This document shows, piece by piece, positions 11,200-26,961 of a DNA stretch of 40,335 nt (position 1 is the first letter of the stretch; every line of letters begins with the position of its first letter). This DNA comes from a virus: IMG/VR virus record IMGVR_UViG_3300025697_000057, positions 1-40,335 of that record; one strand, given 5' to 3'. The translations under genes were made by a program, and so were the position numbers. The notes beneath the pieces were generated by a model that worked only from the letters and a program-made list of their open reading frames with translations, was not told where the DNA came from and ran no database searches.

Positions 11200-13203
11200 A
11201 TGCCTGCTATAAATTATACAAATAGAGATTTCGACAGCATCTTAGAAGAGTTGAAGATTTTTTGTAAACAGAAGTTCCCGGACACCTACACTAATTTTTA
11301 TGAGAGTGGGATGGGAACTGTTTTCATGGAGTTAATTGCTTTTGTTTTTGATAATACTGCTTTTAATTTGGATTATAGGGCTAACGAGCAATATATCTCT
11401 ACGGCAAGAGATCGAAGTAGTCTTATCAATTTAGGTAAACTTGCAGGCTATAAATTATCCCCTGCTACTGGTGCATCTGTTTCTGTGCAAGGTTTAATAG
11501 ACCCCTTTCAGGGTGAGAACATAATTATTGATGCTGGGCAGAAAGTTTTATCTGAAGGGGGAGTCACATTTAGGACGTTGACAGACCAGTTTATTCCTGC
11601 GGGAGATACATCTGCTGATATTCTTTTTGTTGAGGGGGTAGCAGATTCCGATACGTTTGTTTCTGATGGCACAGGCAGACAGTCTCATAAGTTGAGTTCT
11701 GCTGAAGTAATTTCTGGTTCTATTGCAGTTACGGTTGGGGGAGACACTTGGACAGAGGTAGTGTCTTTGGTCTATTCTGATTTTGGTAGCCAAAATTTTG
11801 CAGTAGAATATGATAAAGATGATTATGCCTATATCTTATTTGGGGATAATGAGTCGGGTAAAATTCCTGCATTGAATGATGATATTGTAGTAACGTATCG
11901 TACAGGTGGGGGTGTACAGGGTAATATTGCAATTGGAGAGATAAATACATCTGTTCAAGGATACAAGGAGGGTATATCTCCTATTTCGTATGTAACGGTT
12001 ACTTTTAATAATTTAGAGCGGGGTTCTGGTGGAGAAGAGCGAGAAACAAATGACCATGCCCGATATTGGATTCCTAATTGGGTATGTGCGAATGGCAGAG
12101 CGGTAACTGAACAGGATTTTGATACTCTTGCGGTGGCTTTTTCAGATGCTACTTATGGTAAGGTAGCCCATGCGAAGGCAAGATTAAAACAGTCCATACC
12201 CGAATTAAATTCGGTTGTCATTTCATGCTGGACGAGAGATGATGAAGGCAGTATAACTACGCCCTCTTCTGGTTTGAAAGATGCACTAGAGGCGTACTTC
12301 AATAACAATAGTACAGGTGCTATTAGGTTAATTTGTACGGATGTAGAGGTTGAAGATGGAAATATTGTTTATATTGATGTAGCCAGTTATGTTTCTTTGG
12401 ATAGTACTTATCAATCTTCGTCTGTGCTATTGAATATTTCTTCTGCCTTAGATGAGTTGTTTGAGTCTACAATTATCCTTCCGGGCAAGCCTGTAAGGTT
12501 AAGTGATGTTTACAAGAAAATAAGTCTGGTAGGGGGTGTTGAGCATTGTTTGATTGATTATGTAACTGCATCTGAAGAGTCTATTGAATTTGTTGCATCT
12601 GCATCCGGGGCAACTGCTACGTTCTCTGGTACGTTTTCGTTGGAAGTAGGTCTTCCAATCGTAGAAGGTTCTGTTTCTTTTACTGCTGGATTACAATCAA
12701 TGACTGATGATGGTGATGGTACATTATCTGGTGATGGTACAGGTACAATAGATTATGATACTGGGGCGTATTCTATTACATTAAATGCTGTTCCTGTTGT
12801 TTTGACTATTGTAACTGGAACGTATAGACATATCTTGAGTTATTCTAGAGGGGAATTAGAGACTACTGCTGATGGGATTACTGCTATGTTTGAGGGTAAA
12901 ATAGAGTTCTCTCCGATTGTGTCTTATGATGATGCGTCTGGGTTGAATGGGATAGCCTTTACTGATGGTGAACAGGTTGTTAGTGATAGTGATAGTGCTG
13001 GTGATGGTACATTATCTGGTGATGGCACCGGTACGATAGATTATGATACAGGAGTATATGCTTTTACTCTTGATGCTATTCCTGTTTTGGGGTCAAAGAT
13101 ATATTCTACGTATACGCAGATGTTGAAAACGTCTTCGGAAGATATTCCTATTGATAAAGATGCTATTGCGGTTAAGGGTGATTATTCGATAAGGGTGAGT
13201 TAG
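11200..13203 (+). CDS. Baseplate wedge protein J (gp6-like) with duplicated C-terminal domain
   Basis: 667 residues. The first ~400 are a baseplate J/gp6-like protein: NYTNRDFDSILEELK at the start, a helical 'FYESGMGTVFMELIAFVFDN' segment, then RDRSSLINLGKLAGY and the central RGSGGEERETNDHARYWIPN motif. Wedge proteins of this family dimerise around the tube end and trigger sheath contraction. Residues ~468-547 and ~563-645 are two copies of a beta domain with the core GTLSGDGTGTIDYDTG, not usual for the minimal family. They probably form surface decoration or a fibre-docking site. Confidence 0.85.
   Translation: MPAINYTNRDFDSILEELKIFCKQKFPDTYTNFYESGMGTVFMELIAFVFDNTAFNLDYRANEQYISTARDRSSLINLGKLAGYKLSPATGASVSVQGLIDPFQGENIIIDAGQKVLSEGGVTFRTLTDQFIPAGDTSADILFVEGVADSDTFVSDGTGRQSHKLSSAEVISGSIAVTVGGDTWTEVVSLVYSDFGSQNFAVEYDKDDYAYILFGDNESGKIPALNDDIVVTYRTGGGVQGNIAIGEINTSVQGYKEGISPISYVTVTFNNLERGSGGEERETNDHARYWIPNWVCANGRAVTEQDFDTLAVAFSDATYGKVAHAKARLKQSIPELNSVVISCWTRDDEGSITTPSSGLKDALEAYFNNNSTGAIRLICTDVEVEDGNIVYIDVASYVSLDSTYQSSSVLLNISSALDELFESTIILPGKPVRLSDVYKKISLVGGVEHCLIDYVTASEESIEFVASASGATATFSGTFSLEVGLPIVEGSVSFTAGLQSMTDDGDGTLSGDGTGTIDYDTGAYSITLNAVPVVLTIVTGTYRHILSYSRGELETTADGITAMFEGKIEFSPIVSYDDASGLNGIAFTDGEQVVSDSDSAGDGTLSGDGTGTIDYDTGVYAFTLDAIPVLGSKIYSTYTQMLKTSSEDIPIDKDAIAVKGDYSIRVS
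12712..13052 (+). repeat. Duplicated beta domain within the gp6-like gene
   Basis: The segments starting at 12712 and 13000 are near-identical for about 53 bases, and the similarity continues more weakly over about 240 bases in each copy. The encoded core GDGTLSGDGTGTIDYDTG is identical in both. Confidence 0.85.
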
Positions 13204-14105
13204 TGGGAATTTCGCTATATACATTATTTCCTGCTGTTATTCAATCTGAAGATTCTACGGCAAGTGCAGGACAGGATGAGACTCTACTCCAGAAAATTGT
13301 TTATGTATTAGAGCAAGAGTCAGACATATTTATAGAAAAGACGAAAGGTCTTAAAGACTTAATTGATGTAGATAAATGTTCTTCAGATTATTTTCCTTTT
13401 TTATATGGTCTCTTTGGTTTTTCCGTAGACCCTTCTTGGGATGAGGATAAACGAAGAGATTTTTTACGGGATATAGTTTACCTCATAAAGATTAGTGGGC
13501 AGAGAAAGAGTTGGAAATATTTGTTGAATAGGTACGGGTATACTGGTGCATGGCCGTGGGAATTATATAAAAGTGAGTTAAATGAGAAGTTCGATTATTC
13601 TGCATATCTTGATTATGGCAGAATGCTTTCGGCGAGGGTGGATTTAAGTAAAGTATTGGAAGAGTCTGATACAGAATCCCATCCGAGTGAAGGATATGAC
13701 CCGTACACATATACAGAGACAGAAGACATATTAGACATTTTTGAAAAAGTAAGACCTATTCATATTTTGATACGTAGTCATGGATTATCTTTTGAGATAA
13801 CAGAAGAAACTCCAATTTTTTCTATAGCGGACTCTGCCGAAGGTAAAGTAATTGGAGAAGTAGAAGATGCGGTAGGTACTCTGGCAGAGGATTTAACTAT
13901 TGAGGTTACATGTCAGTGGGGCGGTTGTCAGATTGATTGTGAGGTTTCCTGTGAGACAGATTGTGAGGCCGACTGTGAGGCTGCTTGTATTACAGGATGT
14001 GAAAACTGGTGTGAAGTAAATTGCCAATTATTTTGTGAGTTTGCATGTCAAACGGACTGTCAGGGTACGTGTGAAGGTGCAACTTGTCAACTTTCTGAAC
14101 AATAA
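13203..14105 (+). CDS. gpI-like baseplate protein A with C-terminal C-x3-C repeat domain
   Basis: 300 residues, GTG 13203 overlapping the previous TAG. Residues 1-205 resemble the P2 gpI / tail-protein-I family that follows gpJ in contractile tails: FPAVIQSED, then KTKGLKDLIDVDKC, KRRDFLRDIVYLIKISGQRK and a closing EKVRPIHILIR. After a short linker, residues 237-295 hold 15 cysteines, nearly all spaced C-x3-C, and the residue after Cys is mostly Glu or Gln (CEVSC, CETDC, CQTDC). This tail is absent from ordinary gpI proteins. It could be disulfide-linked, bind metal, or be modified by the radical SAM enzyme encoded 2.4 kb downstream (inference). Confidence 0.75.
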   Translation: MGISLYTLFPAVIQSEDSTASAGQDETLLQKIVYVLEQESDIFIEKTKGLKDLIDVDKCSSDYFPFLYGLFGFSVDPSWDEDKRRDFLRDIVYLIKISGQRKSWKYLLNRYGYTGAWPWELYKSELNEKFDYSAYLDYGRMLSARVDLSKVLEESDTESHPSEGYDPYTYTETEDILDIFEKVRPIHILIRSHGLSFEITEETPIFSIADSAEGKVIGEVEDAVGTLAEDLTIEVTCQWGGCQIDCEVSCETDCEADCEAACITGCENWCEVNCQLFCEFACQTDCQGTCEGATCQLSEQ

Positions 14106-15046
14106 AATAGGTTACAATGGGTATCCGTTTATACGAATTATTGCCTGCAATTATTAGGTATCAGAATGAGTTGATTCAAGTAGATGAGGAGAGCCTACTT
14201 GAAAAGATCGTTTCTATATTAGAACTGGAAACAGACTATTTTCTTGATAAGACTAAGGGCATAAAAAATTTAATTGATCCAGATAATTGTGATGAAGAAT
14301 TACTCTATTACTTGTCTGTTTATTTGGGTACGCCTATTGGGTCAGAGTTTTCAGAAGATTTTCGTAGATGGTTTATAAAGAATTTAGTATTTTTATATAA
14401 AATAAAAGGCACTCATTATTCTTGGGATAAAAATTTTGAGTGGTTGAATCTTGATAAATGGAAAGCAGAAGAACTTTATAAGACAGAAATAAATGAGCAT
14501 AGGAATTGGTATAGGAGTTTGGATTATAATTTATTGAAGTCTGCTAAGTTTGATTTCTATAAAACGGTTTCTGGAGAAAAAGAGTATTTATCTCCTACGG
14601 ATGGACGAGAACTACTTCCTATTGTTGAGAAGTTTCGGCCTATTCATGTAGTTTTAAGGGCGTATGTAGAGGGATTTGATTTAGAAGATTTATTCCCTGC
14701 ACCTGTTTCTGTTGCGGTAGGGCTTGTAAAAGGTGAAGTATCTGATTCTGTGGGGGGCCTATTTGAAGGTGCGTTGGAGATAACACAGTACTGTTTAAGC
14801 GCGTGTCAATCTGCGTGTACTAGCTATTATGAGGGGTCTTGTAGTTTAGATTGTACTGTTTCATGTGAGTCTGCTTGTCAGAACTCTTGTGAGGGTATTT
14901 GCCAGTTTTCTTGTGAGATGGCTTGTCAGGATGGTTGTATTTATGCTTGTGAAAATTCTTGTCAGGAATTCACCTGTCAGGCAGGCGGCTCTGAGGGGGG
15001 TGGGGCTTGTGTAACTTCTTGTGAAACAGGTTGTGAAGCATACTGT
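13911..15046 (+). repeat. Cysteine codon repeat tracts (C-x3-C) in two adjacent genes
   Basis: Tract one is 13911-14087 and tract two is 14792-15046. Cys codons recur every 12 bases over most of both tracts, usually as TGT followed by GAG, GAA or CAG/CAA. The two tracts share the pattern more than the exact sequence, so both are probably maintained by selection on the cysteine spacing. Confidence 0.85.
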
Positions 15047-15322
15047 GAAAGTGGTTTTGAGACGGGTGAAGACGAGTTCATACCCATCCAAGTTATTTCA
15101 GTAAGCGGTACGGGGTCTAGTATGACGGCCAGTGTTAAAAGAATTCAATTTGATAGTACTGAGGTGTTTAATTATAAACAGACAGGAGATGAGATACTGG
15201 ATGTATTGTTATTCCCTGCATCTGGTTGGGCTAAAGCAGATGATTTTTGTGAGCTAGTACAGGGTGAGTCAGGTAGTTGGTTGATAGTACCCGGACGATA
15301 TGGGATAGCTTTGTGGGGTTAA
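14117..15322 (+). CDS. gpI-like baseplate protein B, paralogue with longer C-x3-C domain
   Basis: 401 residues. The N-terminal ~210 residues are clearly paralogous to the previous gene (MGIRLYELLPAIIRYQNE, KTKGIKNLIDPDNC, RRWFIKNLVFLYKIKGTHYS, EKFRPIHVVLR). Residues 226-310 contain 19 cysteines, mostly C-x3-C with Gln or Glu often following each Cys, interrupted once by a Gly/Ser-rich segment. A further ~90 residues form a beta domain ending in PGRYGIALWG. Two tandem gpI-like genes are unusual. The second may be a fibre or receptor-binding version anchored by the same N-terminal domain. The stop is one base before the next GTG start. Confidence 0.72.
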   Translation: MGIRLYELLPAIIRYQNELIQVDEESLLEKIVSILELETDYFLDKTKGIKNLIDPDNCDEELLYYLSVYLGTPIGSEFSEDFRRWFIKNLVFLYKIKGTHYSWDKNFEWLNLDKWKAEELYKTEINEHRNWYRSLDYNLLKSAKFDFYKTVSGEKEYLSPTDGRELLPIVEKFRPIHVVLRAYVEGFDLEDLFPAPVSVAVGLVKGEVSDSVGGLFEGALEITQYCLSACQSACTSYYEGSCSLDCTVSCESACQNSCEGICQFSCEMACQDGCIYACENSCQEFTCQAGGSEGGGACVTSCETGCEAYCESGFETGEDEFIPIQVISVSGTGSSMTASVKRIQFDSTEVFNYKQTGDEILDVLLFPASGWAKADDFCELVQGESGSWLIVPGRYGIALWG

Positions 15323-15323
15323 T

Positions 15324-16517
15324 GTGGCAACAGCACTAGAAAAAGTATCTAAACATGACAGGGTTTGGGGGTTGCCTATAATTGGTAGTGGATGGTCTCC
15401 TAATTTCGATGGTGTGTTTGATCCTGATGTTAATGCTATGACTAAGTTATTCGCGGCGATAGATGAGCGGGTATATGTATGTTATATGCTTAATGGTGGA
15501 GGTTTTGCTCATTGGATAGCTTTTAGGACATGGTTGTTTACTCATAAACTTGAAGCATTTAGGCTGGAGGGGGAGGGTGTAGCGTATGCTTTTTATGATA
15601 CTATTGATGAATTAGCCCCTTATTTTTTAGATGATACAGAAAGGTTTATTACTAGTTCACATCACCCTTTTTATGATGTTGTTGGGAGTTATAATCAAAT
15701 ATGGTGGCACACAGGAACAGGGTATGCAGAGTATAGATCAGCGTTTGGTAGGTGGAAAAGAATAAGTGTACGTATTTTTAATTCTTTTGTTATTGCTGTG
15801 GGTTTAATGAAAAAATTAGCTATAAGACCTTATTCTGCGAGTTCAACCAAAGTGAGTAAATCTTCGGAGGGGCTGTATTTTCCTACTATATCTGCGGCGG
15901 CCTTAGATGCGTGGTCTAAACTTCCTGCGGTGTTTTCTGATGGTGGGGGGTCTTCTGATTTTAGGTTACCTGAAAGTACATCGGCAGGTGTGGAGGGGTG
16001 GATAGAGAAAGACGCTTTTGGTGAGTATAATGCGCGGTTAAGAGTAAGACGGCATGGAGGGGTTACTCCTCATGTGGGAAGTTCTCCTATATTAAATTAC
16101 AGTATTCAATCTTTAAGGTGGTATTCGTGGTTGTATCCTACATCGGGTGCAACTGATGATGCAGATATATCATTATACAGAAAAGCAGGCACAGTAACTC
16201 AAGCGGAGATGAAGAGTTTGGTGGGGTTGTCTTCTATTGCTTCATGGACTACGGATACTTCGATAGCATCTCATGGGGTTTATCAAGATTTATTGGTAGG
16301 GGATTATGATTTTTCTGATCCTTCTGCGAATTCGTATGTTTTAGTTTCTCAAGAGGCTATGCCAACTCATCCTGCGGATAGGGGTCATTATGGATACCTT
16401 CACAATGCTTATAACTATATTGGAGGAAGTTTAAGAGACCCATTATCTCCTACAAACAAAGCGTCGTCTGATTATTTGGTGGCAACTATCAATTGGGGTT
16501 ACGAGGAAGCAGTTTAA
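15324..16517 (+). CDS. Orphan structural candidate between Cys-rich tail protein and radical SAM enzyme
   Basis: 397 residues from GTG 15324, immediately after the stop of the previous gene. I do not recognise the family. It is rich in aromatic and Gly residues and has no signal peptide or obvious membrane helix. Segments such as MLNGGGFAHWIAFRTWLF, SEGLYFPTISAAALDAWSKL and HYGYLHNAYNYIGGSLRDP look like a folded beta-rich or lectin-like surface protein. Its place in the tail-fibre position of the structural operon suggests a receptor-binding or tail-tip protein. It has only one cysteine, so it is not itself an obvious substrate for cysteine modification. Confidence 0.6.
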   Translation: MATALEKVSKHDRVWGLPIIGSGWSPNFDGVFDPDVNAMTKLFAAIDERVYVCYMLNGGGFAHWIAFRTWLFTHKLEAFRLEGEGVAYAFYDTIDELAPYFLDDTERFITSSHHPFYDVVGSYNQIWWHTGTGYAEYRSAFGRWKRISVRIFNSFVIAVGLMKKLAIRPYSASSTKVSKSSEGLYFPTISAAALDAWSKLPAVFSDGGGSSDFRLPESTSAGVEGWIEKDAFGEYNARLRVRRHGGVTPHVGSSPILNYSIQSLRWYSWLYPTSGATDDADISLYRKAGTVTQAEMKSLVGLSSIASWTTDTSIASHGVYQDLLVGDYDFSDPSANSYVLVSQEAMPTHPADRGHYGYLHNAYNYIGGSLRDPLSPTNKASSDYLVATINWGYEEAV

Positions 16518-16546
16518 CTTTTTAAATACAGAAAAGAGAAAAATTT

Positions 16547-17941
16547 ATGAAGATGTTAAATGGAGAGAAACTAAAAAAATATTTTGGAACAGTTGAATCT
16601 AACCCGGACATATTTTCTATAGATGTAAAAGATAAGAGATTTTATATAGACTCGAACTCTTTGAAGGTATTAGAGGATGATAATAAAGACGGTGATTTTT
16701 CAAATATAAGTACGGAAATATTCGGAGTAAACTGGAAACCTTCTTTCCCGCTTTATGGTAATCCTATCGTACGCTATATGGTTTTAGAGATTACACATGA
16801 CTGTAATTTGAAGTGTGATTATTGCTTTGTCAGATCAAATTACGACGATAAAGGTATTATGACTTTTGCAGTTGCAAAGAAGGCCATAGATTCTATCATG
16901 TTACCTATGCGCCAGAAGAATACAGAACTTCGTCTGGGGTTTTTTGGTGGGGAGCCTCTATTGAATTGGGGTTTGATAGAAGAAGTAGTCCAATATATAG
17001 ACGGACTTGAAAACTGTAAGGGACGATACCATATTACTACTAATGGTATGTTATTAGATGAAAAGAAGATAAAATTTTTGAATGAGAATAATTTTTCTCT
17101 GATAGTTTCTATAGACGGCCCGCAGGATATACATGACAGACACCGTAAAAATGCGGGGGGTACGGGTTCATGGGAAAAAATAATAAATAACTTGAAAATG
17201 GTTAAAGGCACTCCTTTGGCAAAAAGGATTACTCTGCGGGGTACTTTTTTGAGTGAGGAAGGTATTCGTTTGTTGGATAGGGTGAAGTACCTTAATGAAC
17301 TCTGTGATGAAGGGTATGCAAGTGCTGTGTCTGTAGAGCCTGCATGTTTAGTTGAGCAGGGTTGTAAGATTTCAGAGAGTAAAGATTTTACTGTTGAGAC
17401 TGTAAAGGATTTACAGGGAGAATACTTAGAAGTAGCAGACTGGATGATTTCAAGGATTAAAGAAGGTAAGCCTGCACGGTTTAAGCATTTAGAGTTTATG
17501 GTGTCTAGGTTGTTATACTCTACCCCGTATTCGGGTGAGTGTGGTGCAGGTAAAGGGTTTGTTAGTGTTTCACATGATGGGTCTATTTTTGCTTGTCATA
17601 GGGAGGCACATACAAAGATAGGCGGCTTGGATACTGGTGGGATAGACGAGGAAAAGCGGGCTATGTGGATGGACAACAGGTATTATGCAAGAGATAAATG
17701 CCCTCAATGCCCTATAAGAAACGCTTGCGGAGGGGGCTGCCGGGAAGAAGGCCTCGGTAAATATGGGGATATTAGGAAACCTTATGAGGTTTCTTGTGAG
17801 TTCAAATACAATTTTTTACGAGGGTCTTTATGGATTTTAAGTTCTATCCCTTACGAGATACTTTGTAAAATCTTTAAGAATCCTTTCGGGAAAAAGGGTG
17901 ATAGCCCTAAACCTAAGATTTTAAAGTCGTGGGTTTTATAG
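16547..17941 (+). CDS. Radical SAM / SPASM peptide maturase, SCIFF-maturase-like
   Basis: 464 residues. The radical SAM motif is HDCNLKCDYCF, with cluster ligands Cys86, Cys90 and Cys93. It is followed by GFFGGEPLLNW (residues 131-141), ITTNGMLL (163-170) and SIDGPQDIHDRHR (188-200). The C-terminus carries a complete seven-cysteine SPASM domain, C332-x12-G-x4-C350, then C385-x2-C388-x5-C394-x3-C398 and C417, expected to hold two auxiliary [4Fe-4S] clusters. This pattern, and the wording of the core motifs, is closest to maturases that form Cys thioether bonds (SCIFF/ranthipeptide type). No separate short precursor peptide gene is seen; the Cys-rich tail proteins just upstream are the obvious candidate substrates (inference). 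Ribosome binding site is weak; ATG 16553 is an alternative. Confidence 0.88.
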   Translation: MKMLNGEKLKKYFGTVESNPDIFSIDVKDKRFYIDSNSLKVLEDDNKDGDFSNISTEIFGVNWKPSFPLYGNPIVRYMVLEITHDCNLKCDYCFVRSNYDDKGIMTFAVAKKAIDSIMLPMRQKNTELRLGFFGGEPLLNWGLIEEVVQYIDGLENCKGRYHITTNGMLLDEKKIKFLNENNFSLIVSIDGPQDIHDRHRKNAGGTGSWEKIINNLKMVKGTPLAKRITLRGTFLSEEGIRLLDRVKYLNELCDEGYASAVSVEPACLVEQGCKISESKDFTVETVKDLQGEYLEVADWMISRIKEGKPARFKHLEFMVSRLLYSTPYSGECGAGKGFVSVSHDGSIFACHREAHTKIGGLDTGGIDEEKRAMWMDNRYYARDKCPQCPIRNACGGGCREEGLGKYGDIRKPYEVSCEFKYNFLRGSLWILSSIPYEILCKIFKNPFGKKGDSPKPKILKSWVL

Positions 17942-17954
17942 TGGAGATGTGATT

Positions 17955-18890
17955 ATGCGGATAGGATTAGTGAGAGAGGCAGGAGGTTTTGGGGACATTA
18001 TAAATTTAGGTGCGCCTGCGAAACAGTTGAAGTTTGAAAACCCTAATTGTTATATTGTTGTGTTTTGTCCTGATGAATTTGTAGACCTTGTAGCACATTT
18101 GTCCTGTGTAGATGAGGTAGTTTCTTTGGGCACGTTGAAAGATTTGAGGCAGGTTAGGCGGCCCAGAGGATCAGAATTGGATATAGACAAGTATCCATAT
18201 TTGGCAGTAATAAAAGAATTTAGTTTGGATAAAGTAGTAGATTTATTTGGTGTGGGGTATATTCACGAAAGTACATTATTAGAACCTTGTACGTACAGTA
18301 GGAGTGAATTATTTTCAATTGCGGCGGGGTGTAGGTATTTAGATGATTCTTTTGCCCATTTCCTTTTTTCTGGTGAAGAGTATAAGGCTTCTCAGAAGTT
18401 TTTATCTGATAAGTATAGGGGTAGAGACTTTATAGGGGTTTCTCTTAGAGGCACTTGTAAGGCTAGGTGTTATCCTTACAAGAAAGAGTTGGTAGAGGAG
18501 ATATTAAAAAGAGGATATGATGTAATTTATTTTGATGGTATTGAACCTGATTTTGAATTGCCTGAAGGGGCATGGAGAAGCCCTAAGAATTTTTTGGATT
18601 CTGCTGAATTAGTGCAGTTCATGGAAAAAATGATTGTGGTAGATAGTGCTATGTTGCATGTAGCGGCTATGAACGGGTTTCCTACCTTGTGTTTAGCAGG
18701 CCCTACAGATGGCCGGGCTATAACTCATTCATATAAATATGTTGGATATATGAACGGAGTATCTGATAAATGTAAAGAGGCTTGTCAGTATAATCCGAAA
18801 CGGGGTTGGAATCCTGAGTGTAAAGAAAATGGATGTAAGAGAATGGACAGTTTAAGACCGGAGGTGGTTTGTGAGATCTTGTTTAATTAA
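17955..18890 (+). CDS. Glycosyltransferase, GT9 / heptosyltransferase-like
   Basis: 311 residues from ATG 17955 (GGAG at 17943-17946); a GTG at 17949 is too close to that site. The N-terminus (MRIGLVREAGGFGDIINLGA) has the Gly-rich loop of GT-B enzymes of the ADP-heptose:LPS heptosyltransferase family. The C-terminal nucleotide-sugar site reads VVDSAMLHVAAMNGFPTL followed by CLAGPTDG. The last 40 residues contain four cysteines (CKEACQYNPKRGWNPECKENGC), seen in some relatives. It would transfer a sugar from a nucleotide donor; acceptor unknown. Neighbours suggest a virion protein or host surface glycan as target (inference). Confidence 0.8.
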   Translation: MRIGLVREAGGFGDIINLGAPAKQLKFENPNCYIVVFCPDEFVDLVAHLSCVDEVVSLGTLKDLRQVRRPRGSELDIDKYPYLAVIKEFSLDKVVDLFGVGYIHESTLLEPCTYSRSELFSIAAGCRYLDDSFAHFLFSGEEYKASQKFLSDKYRGRDFIGVSLRGTCKARCYPYKKELVEEILKRGYDVIYFDGIEPDFELPEGAWRSPKNFLDSAELVQFMEKMIVVDSAMLHVAAMNGFPTLCLAGPTDGRAITHSYKYVGYMNGVSDKCKEACQYNPKRGWNPECKENGCKRMDSLRPEVVCEILFN

Positions 18891-20223
18891 TATTTTCTCT
18901 TATAACAGGTTTGAGCATTTGAGGCTGTGTTTGCTCTATCTTTTGAATTCTAATTTGATGAATATACAGATTAGGATTTCAGATGATGGAAGTACAGATA
19001 AAAGAATATTAGACCTTCTAAATAGGGTCAGTAAAGATAAAAAGGTGATTCTAAATCTTATGCCAGAGCATAAACCCTTGTCTAAGGTAGAATCGGATTC
19101 TGCTATTGGTGCGGCCAGAGGAGAAGCCGTAGAGTATTTTTTGGGTAAGAAGTATGACTATCTGTTATTGTTAGATGATGATATTTTACTAGGAAAAAAT
19201 ACAGTACAAGAGGCTATTGAAGATTACACCTTTTTACGGTACAGAGAAGAGTTTACAAAGGTAGGTGCATTGACTCTTCATGCGTGGGATAGGGGAGGTG
19301 AATTTTTATCTGGCTTTATGAACATAGACGGAAAATGGTTTTCAAGGTGCAGGCTTACAGGTGAATCTGTTTTCTTGGTAGACAGGAAAGCAATAGAGGA
19401 GGTAGGAAATCATTTTTCAGGTGAGTATAAAGGTTTTGCCGATATTCAAATAAAGAAGATATATGAAAAAGGTTTGATATATTATGACCGGAGTTCTTCT
19501 CCATACAATGTTCAACATATTGGCGTAGGAGGAGGTGGTTCAATTATATGGAAAGATAGGCAACCTTTTTGGGTAACTACTATGTGGACAAAAAATTATC
19601 CTGTAAGCAGTAAAAAATATTTACAGGTAGAGGGTTTTTCTCCTCGGAAATTTTTTGCAGATGCGGAATCTTTGGGAAGTGATAAGGCGGCTGAGATACA
19701 TTTTGAAGACGTTAAAAATACATTTGATTATTCTTTTGAAGAGATAAAAATGAAAGATAAAGAACCGCTTGTGTTAAAAGATACTGTTAAGACGGTCTCT
19801 GGTAGCGTAGAGATAAGAGTTAAGAATGTTAAGACTGGTGAAGTGGTAGAGCATACTAAAATAAAGAATTTAGACTTAAATAACTTCTATGTACAGGAAG
19901 CCTCTTTATTGGCGGGAGAGGGGTTGACCACTAAATATATAGATAGGATGGTATTTGGTACGGGTACGGTTGCACCTGTGGTCACGGATACAGGCTTGAC
20001 TGGGACTGTAACGGCCTCAGGTACTTTTAGTGCCTCCTATCCTAGTACTACTTCCGTTCAGTTTGTAGGTACGCTGGAAGGCTCTCAGGGTAATGGGGTT
20101 GCTTTAACTGAGATGGGGTTGATGTGTGCAGATGGTACGTTGGTTACGAGGACGCTTTTTGGGCCTATGACAAAGAGTAGTTTATTTTCTATTGAGATTT
20201 CTTGGACTATTGAGTGGAGTTAG
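18871..20223 (+). CDS. GT2-type glycosyltransferase fused to a virion (tail) domain
   Basis: 450 residues from GTG 18871, with GGAGG at 18860-18864, overlapping the GT9 gene by 20 bases. Residues 1-250 are a GT-A glycosyltransferase: CLINIFSYNR, ISDDGSTDKRILDLL at 36-50, and the metal-binding DDD at 102-104 (LLLLDDDILL). Residues ~310-450 are unrelated to glycosyltransferases and match the domain of the next gene: VEIRVKNVKTGEVVE, RMVFGTGTVAPVVTDTGL, ALTEMGLMCADGTLVTR. That domain is the kind found in phage tail fibres. The fusion suggests the enzyme is attached to, or acts on, the virion. The frame is continuous. Confidence 0.82.
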   Translation: MRSCLINIFSYNRFEHLRLCLLYLLNSNLMNIQIRISDDGSTDKRILDLLNRVSKDKKVILNLMPEHKPLSKVESDSAIGAARGEAVEYFLGKKYDYLLLLDDDILLGKNTVQEAIEDYTFLRYREEFTKVGALTLHAWDRGGEFLSGFMNIDGKWFSRCRLTGESVFLVDRKAIEEVGNHFSGEYKGFADIQIKKIYEKGLIYYDRSSSPYNVQHIGVGGGGSIIWKDRQPFWVTTMWTKNYPVSSKKYLQVEGFSPRKFFADAESLGSDKAAEIHFEDVKNTFDYSFEEIKMKDKEPLVLKDTVKTVSGSVEIRVKNVKTGEVVEHTKIKNLDLNNFYVQEASLLAGEGLTTKYIDRMVFGTGTVAPVVTDTGLTGTVTASGTFSASYPSTTSVQFVGTLEGSQGNGVALTEMGLMCADGTLVTRTLFGPMTKSSLFSIEISWTIEWS

Positions 20224-20227
20224 AAAA

Positions 20228-20665
20228 ATGCACGGATACTTAAATATACGGATACTAGATTTAGAAGGTAATATAGTAGAGGAAAGTGGTAATCAGAATA
20301 TTGTGGTAACAGGCTCTATCGCCCAATTAGCTCGATTGGTCTCTGAAGGGGATAGTGGGTCTACTCATTATATTTCTAAGATGCAATTTGGTACAGGCAC
20401 TATACCCGCTACTGTTTCGGATACGGCTTTACAGTCTCCTATATCTCCGGTGAAAGCTGTAACATTTACTTATCCAGAGACATATCAAATTAGATTTGTT
20501 GCTTATTTGTTGGCTAATGAGGCTAACGGGTTCCCGATAACTGAGGCAGGTTTGTTGACCGGAGGAAATACTTTAATGTCGCGGAGGGTCTTTGCGGCAA
20601 AGAACAAAACATCTGATTATCAATATGAATTTGTTTGGTTAATAGACACGAAAAATGTAATATAA
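20228..20665 (+). CDS. Stand-alone virion domain protein, paralogue of the GT2 fusion C-terminus
   Basis: 145 residues from ATG 20228, with GGAG 20216-20219 at 8-nt spacing; a longer reading from 20192 overlaps the previous gene and lacks such a site. The sequence aligns over its whole length with the last 140 residues of the preceding protein: LNIRILDLEGNIVEES, KMQFGTGTIPATVSDTAL, ANGFPITEAGLLTGG. Likely a small tail-fibre or baseplate decoration protein. It ends the structural transcription unit. Confidence 0.65.
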   Translation: MHGYLNIRILDLEGNIVEESGNQNIVVTGSIAQLARLVSEGDSGSTHYISKMQFGTGTIPATVSDTALQSPISPVKAVTFTYPETYQIRFVAYLLANEANGFPITEAGLLTGGNTLMSRRVFAAKNKTSDYQYEFVWLIDTKNVI

Positions 20666-20710
20666 ATTGTTAATTTTTAAATAGTTAATTATTAAATAGT
20701 TAATGTAGTG

Positions 20711-20745
20711 AACCCTGCTCGAAAATTCGGGTGGGGTTTTTTTAT
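20711..20745 (+). terminator. Rho-independent terminator of the structural operon
   Basis: AACCC (20711-20715) pairs with GGGTT (20734-20738), and CTCGA (20718-20722) with TCGGG (20727-20731, one G-U pair), across a small internal loop and a 4-nt loop. Seven T's start at 20737. Upstream (20666-20705) are three AT-rich variants of a 'TAGTTAAT' word of unknown meaning. Confidence 0.85.
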
Positions 20746-20772: not shown

Positions 20773-20800
20773 TTGACAAAGACGAATTATATTATATAAT
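20773..20800 (+). promoter_or_regulatory. Strong sigma-70 type promoter, copy 1
   Basis: TTGACA (20773-20778), 16-nt spacer, TATAAT (20795-20800). The surrounding 50 bases (20754-20803) are nearly identical to the promoters at 27511 and 40031. It lies just past the terminator and drives the small-gene cassette from 20877. Confidence 0.88.
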
Positions 20801-23169: not shown

Positions 23170-23973
23170 ATGGGTGATTTTGATGAGAGGATGAGGGTGT
23201 ATGAAGAGGTTGAAACTAAACGTAGGTGTATGCCCCTACTTCCTGTGTGCGCTCGTTTAGATGGGCGAAGTTTTCATTCTTTGACGAGGGGGTTAGAACG
23301 GCCATATGATGCAAGTTTTCGTACTTTAATGCTGGACACCCTCAAATATTTAGTTCAAGAAACAAATGCAAGTATGGGATATACTCAATCAGATGAAATT
23401 TCTCTGGTGTGGTGCAGTGAAAAGAGTAAAAGTCAAATTTTCTTTGATGGAAAGATACAGAAAATGGTTTCTACATTATCGGCCATGTGTTCTGTATATT
23501 TCATTAACGCCTTAGGTCATTTTTTCCCTGAAAGAGTTTCTCTTTTGCCCACCTTTGATTGCCGAGTGTGGCAAGTTCCTACTTTGATGGAGGCCGCAAA
23601 CGTCTTTTTGTGGAGAGAGCAGGATGCAACTAGGAACAGTGTTTCAATGGCCGCTCACTCTGTTTATTCTCATAAAGATTTGACGGGTAAAAATTTAAAA
23701 CAAATGCAGGAGATGTTATTTGAAAAGGGGATAAATTGGAATGATTACCCTGCTTTTTTTAAGAGGGGCCTGTTTGTCCAAAAATTTAAAGTGCGTAGGT
23801 CATTTACCCCTGATGAGATAGATAAACTTCCTTTGAAGCACGAGGCAAGAAATACTCCTAATTTCGTGCTTGAACGCTCTAAAGTTAGAACTGTTGACAT
23901 GCCCCCTTTTGCGAAAGTTATTAATAGGGTTGATGTTATTTTTAAGGGAAGTGATCCTACTATTGCAGAATAA
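23170..23973 (+). CDS. thg1: Thg1-like tRNA 3'-5' polymerase (tRNA-His guanylyltransferase family)
   Basis: 267 residues, start supported by ACTGGAGAGG upstream. Metal-binding residues of the catalytic palm are visible: Asp31-Gly32 in CARLDGRSFHSLTRG, and Asp75-Glu76 in GYTQSDEISLVW. The middle (NSVSMAAHSVYSHKDLTGKN) matches bacterial and archaeal Thg1-like proteins, not the eukaryotic HINNLYNT form. The family adds nucleotides to the 5' end of tRNA in the 3'-5' direction; bacterial versions repair 5'-truncated tRNAs. In a phage it could mend tRNAs damaged by host defence nucleases (inference). Only a tRNA-Leu is encoded nearby, so a tRNA-His role is not implied. Confidence 0.87.
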   Translation: MGDFDERMRVYEEVETKRRCMPLLPVCARLDGRSFHSLTRGLERPYDASFRTLMLDTLKYLVQETNASMGYTQSDEISLVWCSEKSKSQIFFDGKIQKMVSTLSAMCSVYFINALGHFFPERVSLLPTFDCRVWQVPTLMEAANVFLWREQDATRNSVSMAAHSVYSHKDLTGKNLKQMQEMLFEKGINWNDYPAFFKRGLFVQKFKVRRSFTPDEIDKLPLKHEARNTPNFVLERSKVRTVDMPPFAKVINRVDVIFKGSDPTIAE

Positions 23974-26867: not shown

Positions 26868-26876
26868 TTTAAACTT

Positions 26877-26961
<85 letters not shown>

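Follow-up and report, generated by a model that had tools for sequence, protein, structure and literature searches.

The window analysed here is the whole of IMG/VR record IMGVR_UViG_3300025697_000057 (40,335 bp), which derives from an uncultured, metagenomic, contractile-tailed phage (myovirus). Within one gene-dense plus-strand run, the tail operon, two gpI-like baseplate proteins bearing dense cysteine arrays (gpI-1 and gpI-2) are encoded upstream of a radical SAM/SPASM enzyme and of glycosyltransferases of families GT9 and GT2. We consider it probable that these genes form a tail-maturation cassette, which would introduce Cys-Glu/Gln thioethers into the arrays and glycosylate the tail. Genes for the tail sheath, tape measure, baseplate hub, gp25 and J lie 5′ of the cassette, and replication genes lie 3′ of it. 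The features of the region run in the following order:

11200..13203, + strand: baseplate J-like wedge protein, first gene 5′ of the cassette (phrog_219, E=1e-36)
13203..14105, + strand: gpI-like baseplate/tail protein 1 (gpI-1), 300 amino acids (aa), with a C-terminal C-x3-C array, proposed substrate (TIGR02242 phage tail domain and Tail_P2_I, both weak; R2-pyocin Tri2 by profile, E=0.002)
13911..14087, + strand: C-x3-C array of gpI-1, residues 237-295, 15 Cys
14117..15322, + strand: gpI-like baseplate/tail protein 2 (gpI-2), 401 aa, with an internal C-x3-C array, proposed substrate (Tail_P2_I E=9e-6, over cut-off; 39% identical to the gpI of locus L187)
14792..15046, + strand: C-x3-C array of gpI-2, residues 226-310, 19 Cys
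15324..16517, + strand: orphan open reading frame (ORF), 397 aa, between the substrate genes and the enzyme, possibly part of a fibre or adhesin
16547..17941, + strand: radical SAM/SPASM maturase, 464 aa (PF04055 E=6e-17; best NCBIfam model TIGR03974; family profile matches CteB, 5WGG)
17949..18890, + strand: GT9 (heptosyltransferase-fold) glycosyltransferase with four invariant Cys (275, 279, 291, 296) (profile against WaaC/GT9 structures, E=4e-18)
18871..20223, + strand: GT2 glycosyltransferase fused to a phrog_5417 fibre-like C-terminal domain (Glycos_transf_2 E=7.5e-6; phrog_5417 E=4e-17 on residues 319-447)
20192..20665, + strand: stand-alone phrog_5417 fibre-like protein, last gene of the operon (phrog_5417 E=2e-24; relatives similarly placed)
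20710..20739, + strand: terminator-like 13-bp stem and T run closing the tail/cassette operon

A perfect (12/12) promoter match at 20773-20800 opens the next gene block. All gene positions given in a preliminary description of this DNA were confirmed. Its layout had the enzyme next to the two Cys-repeat proteins, but the orphan ORF intervenes between gpI-2 and the enzyme, and the description stopped one gene short of GT9 and GT2, both of which are cassette members. The orphan has no match in Pfam, NCBIfam or PHROG and no detectable relative at any cassette locus. A second contig, IMGVR_UViG_3300035698_025633, carries an enzyme and a gpI-2 that are both 100% identical to those of the window, which excludes an assembly accident.

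Fifteen of the 16 Cys of gpI-1 fall in the array, at spacings of 5, then 4 (twelve times), then 5, and 19 of the 21 Cys of gpI-2 do so at a spacing of mostly 4. Both proteins had been described as ending in 15 and 19 Cys at C-x3-C spacing; the counts and the spacing stand, but the array of gpI-2 is internal and is followed by about 90 residues. In the gpI-1 array, E or Q directly follows 12 of 13 Cys. At the DNA level, seven-fold TGY-N9 arrays occur 12 times in the window compared with none in 100 shuffles. The gpI assignment is the firmer for gpI-2, which scores 26.0 bits against Tail_P2_I (cut-off 20.6), whilst gpI-1 remains under that cut-off at 17.0 bits and its TIGR02242 match is sub-threshold.

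Co-occurrence of such arrays with radical SAM genes was assessed in both directions on loci and contigs labelled here with L-numbers; all of these data come from fragmentary metagenomic contigs and the clusters of the enzyme clade share ancestry, so that the p-values below overstate independence. A first scan with a seven-Cys DNA pattern returned mostly low-complexity frames, and the true array family stood out only once [E/Q] had been added to the pattern and a complexity filter applied. Viral contigs with the C-[EQ]-x-x DNA pattern, the seven-Cys scan and the window's sister contig together gave 16 positive records with compositionally complex arrays, whilst 39 other records of the same scan, pulled by low-complexity or chance matches, served as controls. 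A radical SAM domain (PF04055) was present in 13/16 true-array records compared with 2/39 controls. Among these records L124 is the window's own phage, L133 was shifted to the positives after its array had been seen, and the radical SAM of L167 is weak under PF04055 and clear under the family model. L161 was dropped for low complexity, and L209/L237, L098 and L216 were taken out of the positives because of a known TIGR04115 enzyme above cut-off. A second, stricter scan, examined afterwards, added ten previously unseen records, 6 of which contain the enzyme as against 2 of 32 controls. Combined, 19/26 array records and 4/71 controls carry a radical SAM gene (p=6e-11), and in most positives the enzyme gene adjoins or nearly adjoins the array gene. 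Several of the seven misses stop at a contig edge where the enzyme would be expected; the array gene is cut by the contig end in L135, L187, L521 and L528, and the frame of L541 is open at both ends of the locus.

The reverse search started from four close enzymes. It recovered 26 loci of the clade, with an identity of at least 34%, together with 50 loci of more distantly related radical SAMs; at 85% these formed 22 and 28 clusters, respectively. A Cys-array gene was found in the flanks of 16/22 clade clusters compared with 2/28 distant clusters (p=2e-6), and in the clade it always lies upstream of the enzyme on the same strand. The largest array beside a clade enzyme contains 131 Cys (L274). 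The gene immediately 3′ of the enzyme is GT9 in 18/22 clade clusters, compared with 0/28 distant ones (p=4e-10). Moreover, a search with GT9 only returned 20 loci, L273 included, all 20 of which have the enzyme directly upstream; the new loci L476 and L489 also bear Cys arrays. In L277 (9875-12286) the two activities are naturally fused in one 804-aa ORF (enzyme at 43-472, GT9 at 477-772). GT2 homologues follow downstream in about half of the clade loci. GT9 is thus linked to the enzyme more tightly than the Cys-array genes are, and therefore glycosylation is probably part of the same tail maturation. The preliminary description had staked its reading on co-occurrence across related phages, which proved to be strong both ways, with a fixed gene order, in divergent phages and on different scaffolds. 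Its proposal that the enzyme modifies the tail proteins gains from this array-enzyme pairing, although it had overlooked the glycosyltransferases.

The arrays are borne by several different tail scaffolds (INDEPENDENCE). A P2-gpI-like scaffold is used in the window, L187, L181, L275, L284 and L296, a YqbQ-like hub protein in L195, an Ig-domain protein in L133, and proteins of about 1000 aa, called tail-tip-like by size and place and with no Pfam match, in L214, L223, L228 and L282. On the enzyme tree the gpI/tail-tip state switches at least four times. The arrays of L195, L183, L131 and L221 are paired with radical SAMs outside the enzyme clade and lack GT9, so the array-enzyme link is independent of GT9. 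Together, the scaffold switching and these out-clade pairings argue against simple hitch-hiking. As the gpI N-terminal profile was too diverse to serve as a query, the J protein was used instead. In other phages, relatives of J (47-51% identity) precede gpI genes with Cys repeats wherever the contig reaches far enough, and every visible gpI neighbouring a close J (at least 47% identity) bears an array. Three distant J loci have neither array nor enzyme.

Some other Cys-repeat proteins were also noted. The longest array, with 189 Cys in an 875-aa open frame, is at 2-2626 of L507 (IMGVR_UViG_3300032163_001976); PF04055-type radical SAM sequence is matched weakly in this record, near 42.5-43.6 kb. 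At 3-1349 of L239 (IMGVR_UViG_3300028914_000036), a fragment of 449 aa with 81 Cys has a period-8 xGExxCxxx array that turns into C-[EQ]-x-x tetrads; no radical SAM was found on this 35-kb contig. More distant phage radical SAMs with Cys-repeat neighbours of their own occur at L335 (11175-12035, K/S/A/T-type) and L302 (11383-12009, Q-type) and may be further independent pairings.

The enzyme itself contains the radical SAM motif Cys86/90/93 (C-x3-C-x2-C) and seven SPASM Cys (332, 350, 385, 388, 394, 398, 417). Both had been noted in the preliminary description, and all ten cluster Cys are invariant in 16 relatives. A PF04055 score of 62.7 bits (cut-off 29.5) places it in the radical SAM superfamily, SPASM subgroup. 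It matches 83 NCBIfam models at E<=0.1, of which the SCIFF maturase TIGR03974 is the best (216.9 bits, below the curated cut-off of 425). Other scores are 206 bits for PapB NF047865 (cut-off 340), 192 for a Nif11-type model and 186 for an orphan ScfB-related group (both under cut-off), 184 for QhpD TIGR03906 (cut-off 453), 90 for CefB NF038107 (cut-off 600) and 84 for the CXXX-repeat model TIGR04115 (cut-off 350). The top structure match of the family profile is CteB (5WGG), almost full length at E=1.5e-82. The alignment lacks a stretch of about 40 residues from the N-terminal region of CteB that binds the leader, the RiPP (ribosomally synthesised and post-translationally modified peptide) recognition element (RRE). 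On the tree the enzyme clade is supported at 99 (Shimodaira-Hasegawa-like approximate likelihood ratio test, SH-aLRT) and is sister to the SCIFF maturases (92). Judged by these comparisons, the nearest kin of the enzyme is the group of thioether-forming ranthipeptide maturases (SCIFF, PapB, QhpD), which bears out the SCIFF-like label that it had been given. No small Cys-rich ORF that could encode a SCIFF-type precursor peptide was found near the enzyme gene, again as described.

Some enzyme genes have unusual architectures. One example is L292 (9923-12475, IMGVR_UViG_3300035099_000047), where the ORF of the cassette enzyme is 851 aa long and contains two intein-like insertions exactly at SPASM cysteines, one after ...ASE and before CGA and the other between CGSG and CRE; an ORF of L257 that overlaps this case also matched an intein model in NCBIfam. 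The viral-labelled 35-kb record L003 (IMGVR_UViG_3300028829_003800) contains twelve radical SAM domains, most on one strand.

We sought a signature of the chemistry in 1046 C-x3-C units from 26 proteins, namely the two of the window and 24 found via the enzyme rather than by Cys pattern. The residue after an array Cys is E in 49% and Q in 31% of cases, and T, S, V, G and A are abundant at the two positions that follow. In a logistic model the best predictor of E/Q is a Cys at -5 (coefficient 2.16, bootstrap 1.87-2.54), followed by a Cys at -1 (1.71), whilst a Cys at +3 contributes only 0.57. E/Q thus tracks the upstream Cys, which puts Cys N-terminal to its presumed partner; this is also the order in the SCIFF, freyrasin and QhpD links, and the -5 register resembles the C-x4-acceptor pairs of ranthipeptides. 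An NxxC-like pairing ([E/Q]-x-x-C, acceptor first) was rejected, given that E/Q falls to background (5-8%) without an upstream Cys. Asp is rare at +4 of an array Cys and E/Q stands at +5 instead, which departs from the C-x3-D pattern of PapB precursors; the freyrasin links are Cys-x3-Asp (PMC8326336, PMC8172795). A C-x4-Thr link, Cys32-Thr37 (i to i+5), has been reported for a SCIFF maturase product (CteA/Tte1186a; PMC8326336), and QhpD forms Cys-Asp S-C(beta) and Cys-Glu S-C(gamma) links, its target being a protein subunit rather than a small RiPP (PMC8326336). From the enzyme family and the array statistics, a ladder of Cys-Glu/Gln thioethers appears the most likely product.

The GT9 protein of the window alone scores 21.3 bits in Pfam, just below the cut-off of 22. 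However, the family profile matches WaaC/GT9 as listed above, and the AlphaFold2 (AF2) model (predicted local distance difference test, pLDDT, 92.8) has 1PSW as its top Foldseek match (E=9e-14), the top matches being ADP-heptose heptosyltransferases of lipopolysaccharide (LPS) synthesis and TibC; both the GT-B fold and the profile are thus those of a heptosyltransferase. The four invariant Cys form a C-x3-C-x11-C-x4-C motif at the C-terminus. TibC is a GT9-fold heptosyltransferase with a four-Cys iron finger that glycosylates a repetitive autotransporter (PMC4358343). The cassette GT9 resembles the bacterial autotransporter heptosyltransferases (BAHT) TibC and AAH in its fold, its four conserved Cys and the repetitive surface protein proposed as its target. 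Unlike TibC, whose Cys339/342/358/370 lie within the protein, it has its Cys at the C-terminus and in its own spacing; its sequence match to TibC is weak (E=0.002), and LPS heptosyltransferases are closer to it than TibC/BAHT. The GT2-phrog_5417 fusion also occurs in L281 (4294-5610) and L284 (13185-14483), and the GT2 transferase may belong to, or act on, the fibre.

The following model is a proposal built on comparative sequence data. Late in infection, baseplate proteins with (C-[E/Q]-x-x)n would be made together with the radical SAM/SPASM enzyme, GT9 and GT2. The enzyme would bind the arrays directly, cleave S-adenosylmethionine and take a hydrogen from a Glu/Gln side chain, to which the preceding Cys would be joined via an auxiliary [4Fe-4S] cluster. 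Each array would thereby become a ladder of thioether rings with S-C(beta/gamma) bonds, for which C-x4-[E/Q] is the likeliest register. Next, GT9, plus GT2 where present, may glycosylate these tail proteins, the simplest sites being the many Ser/Thr in the remaining array positions. The tail tip would in this way gain a rod or collar that is both stapled and coated with sugar. Co-occurrence, gene order and scaffold switching strongly suggest that the arrays are the substrate of the enzyme. Our confidence is moderate that it would make thioethers on them, and likewise moderate that GT9/GT2 glycosylate the same tail proteins, whilst a mechanical or protective benefit of the modified tail is suggested only weakly.

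The enzyme might instead modify the arrays by other chemistry, such as epimerisation, thiol oxidation, C-C (cyclophane) links or cofactor installation, with GT9/GT2 then glycosylating Cys or Ser/Thr. The chemistry of SPASM radical SAM enzymes is varied, none of the best 25 of the 83 NCBIfam models is over its cut-off, and the linkage evidence points to the substrate and not to the product. Yet the best-matching models and structure are thioether-forming for almost all enzymes tested (SCIFF, PapB, QhpD, CteB), and the single dominant repeated Cys suggests that Cys is the reactive residue; we judge this alternative unlikely. It is also conceivable that the arrays stay unmodified, as a disulphide ladder or a metal or Fe-S site, and that radical SAM, GT9 and GT2 are a separate surface-modification or anti-defence module of the same late operon. 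This would fit the tighter linkage of the enzyme to GT9 (20/20) than to arrays (16/22), with a few enzyme loci lacking arrays, and the four invariant Cys of GT9, which suggest a metal site there. However, arrays without the enzyme are uncommon, arrays occur with out-clade radical SAMs where GT9 is absent (L195, L183, L131, L221), and arrays change scaffold yet keep the enzyme, which makes a separate module quite improbable. Phages do carry metabolic radical SAM genes (e.g. QueE-like PHROGs), and the preliminary description had left room for a metabolic or host-directed role. An auxiliary metabolic gene acting on a host factor or metabolite, with the Cys repeats nearby through hitch-hiking, would have to be reconciled with the fixed tail-operon position, the conserved order, the two-way co-occurrence against matched controls, the ranthipeptide-type family and the enzyme-GT9 fusion. 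We regard it as very improbable.

Several observations weigh against thioether maturation of the arrays by this cassette. Every curated maturase cut-off lies above the score of the enzyme. At least two array records, L239 (35 kb) and L529 (54 kb), lack the enzyme and are real exceptions, and 6/22 enzyme clusters have no clear array, one being truncated and three having only scattered C-x-x-x-C. The difference between Cys at -5 and at -1 is modest (bootstrap 0.97), and the ring position in the SCIFF product is itself disputed (Cys32-Thr37 or Cys32-Thr34; PMC8326336). Lastly, the array in the AF2 model of gpI-2 is unreliable (pLDDT 33-40) and thus uninformative.

Set against known systems, each part of the cassette has kin. 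Like the SCIFF/ranthipeptide maturases (CteB, Tte1186; TIGR03974), which are its sister group and best sequence and structure match, the enzyme combines radical SAM with a seven-Cys SPASM domain and places Cys N-terminal to the acceptor. Unlike them, it scores below the cut-off, lacks the SCIFF peptide and about 40 RRE residues, is coupled to GT9/GT2, and has as proposed substrate a virion protein of 300-1400 aa with tens of Cys. QhpD, a radical SAM/SPASM enzyme and a high-scoring model, likewise acts on a protein subunit and not on a small RiPP; the cassette differs in its sub-cut-off score, in lacking quinohemoprotein amine dehydrogenase (QHNDH) genes and in that its substrate would be an array in phage tails. 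The CXXX-repeat system (TIGR04115), with Cys at every fourth residue of the adjacent target as in both gpI arrays, and CefB (NF038107), with Cys at every fifth, also set a radical SAM beside a Cys array. TIGR04115 enzymes above cut-off are found in viral contigs with CXXX-type arrays (L209, L098). In contrast to the cassette, they form a separate clade (starred on the tree), and the arrays of L209/L237 follow the [E/Q] rule only partly and lack GT9. The cassette thus looks like protein maturation of the ranthipeptide type transferred to phage tails, and it may realistically merit a separate class.

The radical SAM thioether enzymes known so far modify small RiPP precursors or a small number of host enzymes. 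The substrate predicted for this cassette is a structural protein of the virion, with between 15 and about 190 Cys, and both gpI-type and long-tail-tip phages have the cassette repeatedly. Its presence as a set in dozens of other phages suggests that they chemically cross-link and decorate their own tails. We see an even chance that this is a widespread, unrecognised virion maturation, in which phages that differ in tail type would link tens to about 190 Cys in thioether ladders, carried by interchangeable scaffolds and subsequently glycosylated, and which would be the first covalent ladder made by a radical enzyme in a virus particle. Among open-licence papers we found none on radical SAM modification of phage tails or virion proteins, or on radical SAM-GT9 coupling. 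If correct, the proposal would reveal a novel means of stabilising or protecting phage tails and a genetically encodable route to long thioether-stapled protein rods, and would explain why phages carry peptide-maturase-like genes.

As to the range of the cassette, INPHARED phages gave no gpI, tail-tip or GT9 relative at E<=1e-5 and no record with the cassette, the only match being a weak Cys array in one unannotated faecal contig. Array, enzyme and GT9 occur in order in a planctomycete metagenome-assembled genome (MAG; L471, a bacterial assembly), and the same array-enzyme pairing lies amid phage-like genes on a Clostridia MAG contig (L473); these two loci hint at possible hosts. Two human-gut contigs, H1 and H6, with enzymes 29-32% identical, were set aside as true SCIFF maturases and not the cassette system. 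Elsewhere in the window, there is a tRNA-His guanylyltransferase-like gene at 23170-23973 (phrog_4717, E=1e-80) and a tRNA-Leu(taa) gene at 26876-26961.

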